Assembly (NCBI GenBank): GCA_028284265.1
Contig: JANQRZ010000024.1
Location: 128,132-192,131, forward strand
Length of the DNA: 64,000 bases
Source: Rhodothermales bacterium
GTDB taxonomy: Bacteria; Bacteroidota; Rhodothermia; Rhodothermales; JANQRZ01
Direction of reading: 5' to 3'
Position 1 is the first letter of the stretch. Every line of letters begins with the position of its first letter. The position numbers were made by a program, and so were the translations under genes. Below, one piece after another: positions 59,842 through 63,853 of this stretch. Under the pieces are notes generated by a model. It was not told the DNA's origin and ran no database searches. It worked only from the letters and a program-made list of their open reading frames with translations.

Positions 59842-60183
59842 GTGGCGATTCCGTATAAGTATAGTTATGCTGCGTTACTGCCCGTGACTTCAGACTCGAT
59901 CATTACAGAACTGTTAGAACGTTTTCCCAAGGGGAGCTTCGCTAGCGGTGTGGTCTCGCTCCACGTCTCGTTCGGCTTCTTCGTAGACATCGGAGTGCCT
60001 GAGGCAGATGGTCTCGTTCGAGTCATCGACATCACGGATGAGCCGCGAGCCATCACGGAGGCCGACTACCCACCTATCGGTTCAGAGGTGAGAGCTTACG
60101 TTTGGGGCGTGGAGAAGGGCGGCGGGACCCGGACACAGGTGATTCTGAGTATCAAGCCCAGCCTTATGCGCGGCGCGGCATAA
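59842..60183 (+). CDS. small S1-like (OB-fold) protein, probable integron gene-cassette product
   Basis: 113 residues from GTG 59842, which has a purine-rich GAGG a few bases upstream; a GTG at 59884 would give 99 residues. Residues 29-107 look like an S1/OB RNA-binding domain: GSFASGVVSLHVSFGFFVDIG, GLVRVIDITDE, GSEVRAYVWG and QVILSIKPSL. Its codons are a little less GC-biased than the flanks (CTG-TTA-GAA-CGT-TTT). The TAA stop at 60181-60183 lies inside the attC-like site that follows, as in integron gene cassettes. Function unknown. Confidence 0.65.
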   Translation: MAIPYKYSYAALLPVTSDSIITELLERFPKGSFASGVVSLHVSFGFFVDIGVPEADGLVRVIDITDEPRAITEADYPPIGSEVRAYVWGVEKGGGTRTQVILSIKPSLMRGAA

Positions 60184-60302
60184 CCCGGCGTTGCAAGGCG
60201 ACCCTGGGCTTCACGGCTTTGCCCGCTACCTCCGCCGCGCCTACTTTGCCACCGTTCACCGTTTGCGCCGCTCAGCGCGGCTGAAGCGCCACTCCGTTAT
60301 GC
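60178..60302. mobile_element. integron attC-like recombination site
   Basis: 125 bp with the anatomy of an attC site. The outer R boxes GCATAAC (60178-60184) and GTTATGC (60296-60302) are perfectly complementary; the inner L boxes GGCGTTGCA (60187-60195) and TGAAGCGCC (60282-60290) pair with one G-T and one mismatch. The right end GCGGCTGAAGCGCC...GTTATGC resembles the conserved core seen in attC consensus primers. The S1-like ORF stops inside the left box, and the next ORF starts inside the right one. No integrase in the window. An exact GTTATGC also occurs at 59864-59870, the likely left edge of a cassette. Confidence 0.7.
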
Positions 60303-60661
60303 GCCTCTTGCTCACACTCAGTATCGTGCTGGCGGCGACTGGCGCACAGGCTCAGGTTGACACCCTGAGACTCGACACGTCCGGCGACAAGCCTGTCCTC
60401 TACCTCCGAGACCACTCGCTCTACCCCGGCACGACCCAAGCATCTACGTCGGAGTCGCTCGCTGTCGTGCGGCAGGGGCCAGAGCCGATCCCGGCGTCAT
60501 CGTCTCCACCAACTCGGCGGGATGCTCGCTTCCCCACCTTTGGCATCGTGTGGATCGTAGCAATCGGGGCCGCGATTCTCTCGACGCTGTTCGTTTCGTT
60601 GGAAGCACGACGCCGAAACCGAACGCGACGTAGGATGTGGGAAGACAGCGCCAAACGCTAA
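60299..60661 (+). CDS. small exported protein with C-terminal membrane helix, function unknown
   Basis: 120 residues. ATG 60299 lies in the right R box of the attC-like site, so the start depends on that junction. Signal peptide LLLTLSIVLAATGAQA, a Pro/Ser-rich middle (GPEPIPASSSPPTRRD) and a C-terminal helix (FGIVWIVAIGAAILSTLF) followed by an arginine-rich tail, which points to a membrane-anchored periplasmic protein. It ends next to a permease remnant on the opposite strand, sharing one base. No recognised family; it might be a second cassette whose attC has been lost. Confidence 0.6.
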   Translation: MRLLLTLSIVLAATGAQAQVDTLRLDTSGDKPVLYLRDHSLYPGTTQASTSESLAVVRQGPEPIPASSSPPTRRDARFPTFGIVWIVAIGAAILSTLFVSLEARRRNRTRRRMWEDSAKR

Positions 60662-60768
60662 AAAAACGCGGCGGCGGGGTTGGCTAGGGCGAGGGTGCGC
60701 GACTGTGACGCGACGGACACGGCGACGGTGAGCAGCACGAGCGCGTAGGCCAGCACGAACCACGGCGC
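60661..60768 (-). pseudogene. 3' remnant of an FtsX-type permease gene
   Basis: The minus-strand reading gives FVLAYALVLLTVAVSVASQS and RTLALANPA, almost identical to the end of the intact permease gene at 61395-63764, then diverges into AAAFF and a stop. Only about 35 codons of homology remain and no start is present, so this is a truncated duplicate. At the DNA level it is similar to 61400-61510. Confidence 0.85.
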
Positions 60769-60820: not shown

Positions 60821-61033
60821 ATGCAACGCCACGAGGTGTACCATTCCGATCCCGAGATCATGGGCGGCACCCCCGTCTTTCAGGGCACCCGTGTTCCTGT
60901 CCAGACCCTCCTCGATTACCTCGAAGGTGGAGAGACGCTTGACGAGTTCTTGGAGGGTTTCCCGGGCGTCAGCCGGGAGCAGGCTATCGCTTTCCTAGAG
61001 ATAGCGAAGGAGGCCGTACTCGCTACCGCTTGA
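60821..61033 (+). CDS. DUF433 antitoxin-like protein (orphan)
   Basis: 70 residues, full length for DUF433. MGGTPVFQGTRVPVQTLLDYLEGGETLDEFLEGFP is the typical core. DUF433 proteins usually act as antitoxins paired with a DUF5615 or PIN-like toxin downstream. Here the next 36 bp lead straight into a repeat and no toxin gene follows, so it is an orphan or a broken pair. ATG 60821 is the only Met near the start of homology. Confidence 0.85.
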   Translation: MQRHEVYHSDPEIMGGTPVFQGTRVPVQTLLDYLEGGETLDEFLEGFPGVSREQAIAFLEIAKEAVLATA

Positions 61034-61394: not shown

Positions 61395-63764
61395 TTATCC
61401 GCGTCGCAATACGTCGGCGGGGTTGGCGAGTGCGAGGGTGCGTGACTGCGAGGCGACGGACACGGCGACGGTGAGGAGTACGAGCGCATAGGCTAGCACG
61501 AAGGGTATGGGCGTCAGCGGCATCACGTTCGCCACGTCGAGGCCAATTAGGACGCGGAGGCCGCTGTAGGTGACGGCAGTCGCAATGCCCGCTGCGACAG
61601 TCAGCATCACCAGAATCGTGCGGTTGACGAGGAAGACGATGTGCGGCACCGAGGCCCCGAGCACTTTCCGCACGCTCACCTCCTTCAGCCGCCGGGCGAT
61701 GTTCTGCGAGGCCAGCCCGAATAGTCCCATGCACGCGATCAGCAGCGCGAGGGCCGCGAGGTAGCCGATGCTCCGCGACAGGTTGAGGTAGGACCCATAC
61801 TGGAGGTCGAACACTTCGCGTTGGGCAAAGGCGTCGAACGGGAGGTTGGGCACCTGCCGGGTCCACGCGGCCTCCAGCGCGGCGCGGGCGGCGTCGGCGC
61901 TGCCCGGTGCGGCGTGAACCGTCAGGAAGCGGTACCCGGTGTCGGCGCGGAGAAAGATGGTCGGTTGAGCACGCTGGATCGGGTCGTGCAGAAAGTCTTC
62001 GACAACGCCAACGACGGTATAGAGTGTCTCGTCGAGGCGGAGCGTCTGGCCGAGCGGTTCGGTCCAGTCGCGCATATCGGCGAAGTGCTGAGTGATGACG
62101 ACGGCCTCGGCATCATCGCTTGTGCGCGCCGGGTCGAAGAAGCGCCCGCTGTGCAGACGTAATCCGAGCGCGTCCGCGTAGGTCGGCCCAACGGTATAGG
62201 CATCCGCCTCGTATTCCGTCGCCTCGTCAGCGTTGAGGGTATATGTTACCCGGCTGCGCGCCGACCCGACATGGTCTTTCGATCCAGCCACGCTGAGGAC
62301 TGTGGCTTGGCTCATCGCGGCGTCGCGCAGCAGGTCAAACTGCTCCGGGTCGGAGAGGCGAACGACGAACGTATCGTCCGGGTCGTAGCCCCACGACTGG
62401 TCGAGCAGGTAGCGCCCGTTCAGCGTCAGGAAGGCCGTCATAATCACCGCCAGAAACGCGATCACGAACTGGGCCGTCGTGAGCGTGTGCGAGAACCAGC
62501 GCCGCGAGGAGAGGTCGAGCCGCCCGCGCAGAATCCGCACCGGCTGGAACGACGTGACGTAGAACGCCGGGTAGGCTCCTGCCGCGACGCCGACGAAGGC
62601 GAGCAGCGCGACAAGGAAGCCCCACAGCCCGAGGTTCTCCGTGAAGGCCAGCTCAACTTGCATCACGAACACCTGATTGAACAGTGGCACCAGCACGCCC
62701 CACGCGAGCACGAGGCCGAGCACCAGCGCGAGGGCACAGAGTAGCAGGTTCTCCACCATGAACTGCGCGATGAGCTGTCGCTTCGTGCCGCCGACAACCT
62801 TCCGCACGCCGATCTCTTTGAGCCGCCACACCGCGCTGCCGAGCGCGATGTTGATGTAGTTGAAGCACGACAGCGCCATCATGAAGCCCGCGAGCGCGAC
62901 CATGATCATCGAGAGCGCGGGGTGCGGCGCTTCGGTCGGGCGGCGGAGGACGTGGTGAGCACCGGGGGCCGGGTCCGTCAGGCGCTCAAACGTGAAGCGC
63001 TCGATGGGCCAGTCCTCACCCGCGACCCGCTGTCGGTCGAGGTAGGGGACCGTCTGGGCAGCGAGTCCGTCGAAGTCGGCAGCGCTACGGAGCAGGAGGA
63101 AGGTGGCTCCGGTCGGGGTCGCCCAGTCGTCGGCGTGCGCCAGCAGGTCCGGCAGCTGGGCGTCGAACGATAAGAGCACGTCGAAGCGCAGGCTCGCGTT
63201 GTTCGGGAATGGGGCCGCGACGCCACCGACGGTATAGACGTCCGGCGCGGCCTCGCCCACGGTGATAGCCAGGGAGCGCCCGAGCGGGTCATCGTCCCTG
63301 AAGTATTTGCGCGCCGCCTCGTCGCTCAGGATCACCTGATCGCGCGTGGCAAGGGCATTGGGTGTGCCAGCCTGAAGCGGGAAGGTGAACACGTCGAAGA
63401 AGCTCGGATCGGCAAACCCGATGCGCTCGGTGAAGGCATACTCGTCGGTTCGCACGTCGCCGCGCTCCCAGACGAGGCGGGCCGAGCGCTCCACCTGCGG
63501 GAGATCAGCTTCCAGCGCCGGGCCGAGCGGAAGTGGAGCCGTGCCCCATGTCTGCTCGGCCTCGTCCCGCAGCACGACGTGCTCGACGAGTGCGATGCGG
63601 TCGCCGTGCTCATGCCCAGTGTCGAGCGTGTAGTAGACCTGAAGGAACAGGTAGACGACGACGCTGCTCGCGAGCGCAATCGAGAGTCCGACGATGTTGA
63701 TGACTGACGGGACCTTGTTCTTCAGCAGGCTGCGGACGGCGCTCTTGAGATAGCTCTTGAACAT
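61395..63764 (-). CDS. ABC transporter permease with two FtsX domains (MacB_PCD type)
   Basis: 789 residues. N-terminal helix (INIVGLSIALASSVVVYLFLQVYY), a MacB_PCD extracytoplasmic domain, three FtsX helices (about 285-410, with RLKEIGVRKVVGGTKRQLIAQFMVENLLL), a second MacB_PCD domain and three more FtsX helices (RRLKEVSVRKVLGASVPHIVFLVNRTILVMLTV). Such double FtsX proteins are common and often tandemly duplicated in Bacteroidota; they move lipids, peptides or antimicrobial compounds together with a separate ATPase, not found here. ATG 63764 (MFKSYLKS) is used. Two remnants of its 3' end lie downstream. Confidence 0.9.
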   Translation of the reverse strand: MFKSYLKSAVRSLLKNKVPSVINIVGLSIALASSVVVYLFLQVYYTLDTGHEHGDRIALVEHVVLRDEAEQTWGTAPLPLGPALEADLPQVERSARLVWERGDVRTDEYAFTERIGFADPSFFDVFTFPLQAGTPNALATRDQVILSDEAARKYFRDDDPLGRSLAITVGEAAPDVYTVGGVAAPFPNNASLRFDVLLSFDAQLPDLLAHADDWATPTGATFLLLRSAADFDGLAAQTVPYLDRQRVAGEDWPIERFTFERLTDPAPGAHHVLRRPTEAPHPALSMIMVALAGFMMALSCFNYINIALGSAVWRLKEIGVRKVVGGTKRQLIAQFMVENLLLCALALVLGLVLAWGVLVPLFNQVFVMQVELAFTENLGLWGFLVALLAFVGVAAGAYPAFYVTSFQPVRILRGRLDLSSRRWFSHTLTTAQFVIAFLAVIMTAFLTLNGRYLLDQSWGYDPDDTFVVRLSDPEQFDLLRDAAMSQATVLSVAGSKDHVGSARSRVTYTLNADEATEYEADAYTVGPTYADALGLRLHSGRFFDPARTSDDAEAVVITQHFADMRDWTEPLGQTLRLDETLYTVVGVVEDFLHDPIQRAQPTIFLRADTGYRFLTVHAAPGSADAARAALEAAWTRQVPNLPFDAFAQREVFDLQYGSYLNLSRSIGYLAALALLIACMGLFGLASQNIARRLKEVSVRKVLGASVPHIVFLVNRTILVMLTVAAGIATAVTYSGLRVLIGLDVANVMPLTPIPFVLAYALVLLTVAVSVASQSRTLALANPADVLRRG

Positions 63765-63853
63765 GGGCGGTGCGGCGAAAGAGGACACGCGAAGTAAGCG
63801 CGCTACGGGGTTCGCGGCTGCCTAGTTACGAGGAGCACGGTTTCGCCGTGGCG

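Follow-up and report, generated by a model that had tools for sequence, protein, structure and literature searches.

A single integron-type gene cassette carrying an S1-domain gene in a Rhodothermales genome

The 64-kb stretch of Rhodothermales DNA analyzed here (the window) contains an integron gene cassette of 432 bp, running on the plus strand from the G^TT at its left edge to the G^TT in the R' box of its attC site (59865–60296). The left edge corresponds to the complement of the R'' box and the right edge to R' itself, and between them lie a small gene for an S1-domain protein and most of a 125-bp attC site. The cassette is probably a single member of the lineage's chromosomal integron system, placed by an integron integrase at a secondary site resembling attI.

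The attC site (60178–60302, plus strand) is delimited by an R'' box, GCATAAC (60178–60184), and an R' box, GTTATGC (60296–60302), both recognized in the sequence and by the covariance model described below. As the initial annotation had stated, the two heptamers are perfect complements lying 118 bp apart, start to start. GCATAAC occurs once on the plus strand of the window (60178) and GTTATGC three times (34933, 59864, and 60296). A covariance model was needed because plain DNA similarity between the site and its own genome yielded only short, weak pieces and no second full copy. The training set of this model, R1, comprised 10 attC sites drawn from five loci (L098, L102, L103, L104, and L112) that belong to other families of the order. 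All came from intI-adjacent arrays and none from the window or its genome; these array sites had been located near the relatives' integrases by R- and L-box pairing, in an orientation leading away from intI. In the training alignment, 93% of cells are paired versus 78% in shuffles, 12 pairs are changed on both sides, and pairing is far lower in slid controls; covariation in the stem is strong. R1 matches 60178–60302 with 57.6 bits (E 6.7e-13), the runner-up in the 64 kb scoring 9.5 bits, and confirms a site previously described only as attC-like. The model does not fire everywhere, since seven of 20 other genomes of the order gave no match.

Within the model, the L'' region (GCGTTGCA, 60188–60195, plus strand) pairs with the L' region (CTGAAGCGC, 60281–60289, plus strand), the latter having one inserted base. 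The window site forms 21 of 23 model pairs as Watson-Crick pairs, all seven of the R stem included, and ranks among the best of 49 sites by this count, which is taken from an alignment fitted to the model and leaning towards its structure. The pairing of the inner L boxes proposed at the outset is thereby borne out. When both window strands were scanned heuristically for R/L-box pairs, the same site was the sole candidate at threshold. Its resemblance to an array attC of L098 runs from end to end and extends to GGGCTTCACGG in the variable portion. The folding energy of the strand by itself is not diagnostic: the strand folds no better than shuffled sequence (z +0.6), and the canonical stem lies 8 kcal/mol above the minimum-energy fold, a behavior shared by some array sites. 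A decayed stem, as read from the minimum-energy fold, was considered and rejected, given the 21 pairs kept. An Rfam scan at gathering thresholds, against a library that may hold no attC family, returned nothing. On sequence evidence, the segment 60178–60302 is a genuine attC, and the identity of the cassette is nearly as secure as such evidence allows.

Insertion at G^TT predicts that the complement of a cassette's own R'' should be found at its left edge. GTTATGC at 59864–59870 (plus strand) matches this complement at 7/7 positions and is the predicted edge, the recombined tail of R', as had been suspected from the heptamer's position; the cassette therefore occupies 59865–60296. This genome and three related ones together offer 42 attC sites whose neighboring ORF is usable for the same test, and a left-edge match of at least 6/7 near the ORF start was seen at 27, against 6.5 expected from shuffled regions. 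At the other end, the ORF upstream of attC, in the same orientation, stops with a TAA (60181–60183) inside GCATAAC, again as first described, and this +5 stop geometry recurs at other attC sites. With attC, ORF end, and left edge all in place, the original reading as an integron gene cassette holds. The initial annotation had also pointed to an ORF that starts in the right box as part of the usual cassette geometry. An ORF does open with the ATG at 60299, inside GTTATGC, but the arrangement is not usual: an ATG in the R' box opens an ORF of >100 codons at only 4/46 attC sites examined, the window included.

The interval originally given began at 59842, and the start of the gene has to be revised. 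GTG 59884 is the likelier start codon because GTG 59842 lies outside the left edge of the cassette (59864/59865). The gene so delimited (59884–60183, plus strand) encodes a 99-amino-acid S1 (OB-fold) domain protein, in agreement with the earlier description of an S1-like product. Its match to PF00575, from a scan run on the longer version starting at 59842, has an E value of 2e-8 and 34.9 bits, compared with a curated cut-off of 22. The protein consists of a single S1 domain, nearest to the repeats of ribosomal protein S1 and to the S1 domain of PNPase. The GC3 of the gene is 0.66 versus 0.91 for the kinase gene upstream, as expected if it was acquired. Among 395 genomes of the phylum, its relatives are confined to ordinary S1 domains inside larger proteins, and searches of genome contig, plasmid, and viral contig collections found none. 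Tblastn searches of the fetched regions of relatives, which covered the two closest relatives in those regions, found neither the S1 gene nor the ORF to its right. A degenerate motif scan with the S1-like protein gave three matches that were judged to be chance from the reading frames there. The protein has no match in a defense library, and single-sequence structure prediction gave only a low-confidence model (pLDDT 37). Going by its fold family alone, a stand-alone S1/OB-fold protein of this kind is most likely a small RNA-binding protein.

No integron integrase match is found on the window's contig, in keeping with the initial annotation, but the genome as a whole is not free of one. A search beyond the contig, which had been suggested for both integrase and attC, located an integron integrase gene on another contig (C2:38046–38993, equivalent to L001 1501–2448), which scores 375.6 bits where the cut-off is 265. 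The gene has one nonsense codon, a TGA that falls just before AMCHTLRHSFATHLL and upstream of the catalytic H-x-x-R motif (HTLRHSF), and its product is presumably dead. Upstream of it lies an attI-like core, CTGAAGTAGTAG^TTATAC, which fits the attC at C2:34689 (R'' GTATAAC). A model refined by sites of the family counts eight attC sites in the genome, none with an E value above 1.1e-11. They fall into seven loci spread over five contigs, and two of the eight lie on the integrase contig; the site at C14:360243 was in neither training set. The attC nearest to that of the window is 23 kb downstream. The description of the cassette as solitary is therefore right for its locus but not for its genome, where it is one of eight and an integrase is present. 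There are 10 attC sites in the same-genus relative G395 and 20 in the same-family relative G396, most of them scattered, and both genomes have an integron integrase free of internal stops. Integron integrases (E 1e-60) are common in the sampled phylum, occurring in 107/395 genomes, several of which have two or three.

Comparison with these two closest relatives, another check that had been proposed, centers on the histidine kinase gene immediately upstream of the cassette, which has orthologues in both (90% in G395, 81% in G396), with no attC following either one. In G396 the kinase gene is followed by a polyphosphate-kinase-like gene and then a permease gene, and in G395 by another gene (names by inspection of translations). 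Homology to the relatives does not extend past the kinase gene, and in G396 it reappears only with the permease, leaving no clean empty site. At C8 and C20:211539, two further cassette loci of this genome, the orthologous positions in G395 and G396 likewise carry no attC, and at both the sequence right of attC matches G395 directly. The neighbor that starts in the R' box at C8 is a gene conserved in G395, and a gene starting in R' can therefore be a resident. Its counterpart in the window is an orphan ORF of 120 amino acids (60299–60661, plus strand; GC3 0.70) with a signal-peptide-like start by inspection, for which neither 30 relatives nor plasmids gave a good match; it may be either a resident gene or an attC-less second cassette. 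Because this right neighbor is an orphan, the right junction is not provably genomic.

Several other features were noted in this neighborhood and around related loci. The FtsX-like permease gene of the window (61395–63788, minus strand) has a duplicated 3' end, the copies (60669–60759 and 61412–61502) lying 743 bp apart just right of the orphan ORF and being 89% identical; G396 has a single copy. A DUF433 gene (PF04255) is located at 60821–61033, and its relatives occur in regions that contain cassette loci or are orthologous to them (L219 77%, L201 57%, and L205 44%). After ftsE, homology between C20 of G395 and C8 of this genome (L219 and L148) ends at the same AACGTTATC, with different genes beyond, and the common end is possibly a shared insertion point. 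In G395, stretches of 28–36 bp, up to 100% identical, are found on many contigs and constitute a dispersed repeat (query parts L150 9845–9886 and L148 8452–8482).

The left flank of the cassette bears on the nature of the target site. The 11 bp beside G^TT (59853–59863, plus strand) form an AT-rich core, GTATAAGTATA, that resembles the attI cores beside integrases. As a flank (GTATAAGTATAG) it has 9/11 A/T; among the background GTT sites that precede ORFs, 0.16% reach this level. Ten left flanks of scattered cassettes, nine from this genome, G395, and G396 outside intI-adjacent arrays and one with a less certain edge, have a mean of 6.0 A/T in the 11 bp before G^TT versus a background of 3.8 (resampling p ~5e-5), and several read like attI cores beside integrases (CTGAAGTAGTAG, GATATAATTATAGG). 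An ungapped position-weight matrix of left flanks did not recognize that of the window (score −3.6), so the likeness of the latter to attI is one of A/T richness and visual resemblance. Given this poor score, and given that the flanks were chosen after viewing, the attI-like character of scattered-cassette flanks is suggestive only. No attI direct-repeat boxes were seen upstream of the window's left edge. Two scattered cassettes, at L204 (G396 C20) and L188 (G395 C91), have left flanks that match the attI core together with an upstream TTATGCGGC box, on contigs with no intI match; these flanks are possibly displaced copies of attI.

Insertion by an integrase would account for the cassette as follows. 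In a circular cassette composed of the S1 gene and attC, the bottom strand of attC would fold into a hairpin, which the integrase would recombine with a secondary chromosomal G^TT preceded by an AT-rich, attI-like left half (GTATAAGTATA|G^TT). Recombination would leave TTATGC of the cassette at the left edge and attC at the right, and subsequent death of the integrase would strand the cassette. Since the integrase of this genome is truncated before the C-terminal catalytic motif, the cassette is presumably stranded now, unless an integrase acts in trans.

A less probable history, and one we regard as unlikely, makes the locus a relic: an earlier integron here, with intI, attI, and several cassettes, would have been reduced by deletions to a single cassette, a CALIN by loss. 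It would explain a left flank that looks like an attI core, and it finds parallels in the fuller attI-like flanks without intI at L204 and L188 and in the phylum genomes with two or three intI; the composition of the right ORF is also atypical. Against it, the contig has no integrase match, only 58 bp separate the kinase gene from the cassette with no attI repeats seen upstream, and there is no second attC within 23 kb. Far less likely still is that homologous or illegitimate recombination, and not an integrase, brought in the cassette as part of a longer segment that was transferred or rearranged at a kinase-permease breakpoint. The duplicated permease end does mark a rearrangement spot, and both relatives have different genes beyond the kinase, but the cassette edges lie at G^TT boundaries with a 7/7 match on the left, and other scattered cassettes have similar edges. 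A chance inverted repeat in intergenic DNA, with which the unremarkable fold energy would agree, is practically refuted by the independent model match, so far above the second-best score in the window, and by the full-length similarity to array attC sites.

The preferred reading, a single cassette inserted by integrase, places the window cassette close to several known systems. Cassettes of sedentary chromosomal integrons, of which a complete example has been reported from Salinibacter ruber M1 (PMC9024848), likewise have an attC of ~125 bp whose R and L boxes pair, a single ORF that ends at R'', edges at G^TT, and an integron-type IntI in the genome. The window cassette differs in being single and away from the integrase, which is broken, and it is not part of a complete integron, where a functional intI lies beside attI and an array. 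It is like a CALIN in having attC without intI nearby but has only one attC, whereas a CALIN comprises at least two in a cluster. IntegronFinder 2.0 calls CALINs from two attC upward by default, although single-attC ones can be true positives, and software defaults that require two would miss lone sites like that of the window. Experiments with E. coli, cited in PMC12444791, have demonstrated cassette insertion at places other than integrons, and the work on attG insertion by Loot et al. (2024; doi 10.1038/s41564-023-01548-y) is cited both there and in PMC12901181. As far as these citations describe them, attG insertions have in common with the window cassette that single cassettes lie scattered at G^TT positions outside arrays; the window cassette would be a natural case in a lineage distant from E. 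coli, its left flank resembling the lineage's own attI core. By the measures relevant to an attG-type insertion, the orthologous locus in relatives has no attC and no clean empty site, and the left flank is attI-like. In Xanthomonas genomes, CALINs are found away from the integron locus and integrases are often inactivated (PMC12444791), and the secondary sites of IntI1 are described as GNT, extendable to GTTRRRY (PMC10127599). The window site fits both descriptions.

Cassettes of this kind are known, and the interest lies in their genome-wide scatter. It is a tentative idea, which we hold to be rather less than even in its chances, that in this order the chromosomal integrase routinely disperses single cassettes to attI-like secondary sites, the genome itself, more than any one array, serving as the cassette store and the window cassette representing one such insertion. 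Genomes in which 8 to 20 attC sites lie scattered, the majority accompanied by a gene and many showing a recognizable left edge, are natural study material in which it can be asked how often cassettes insert, which sequences they target, and whether the inserted genes are retained.
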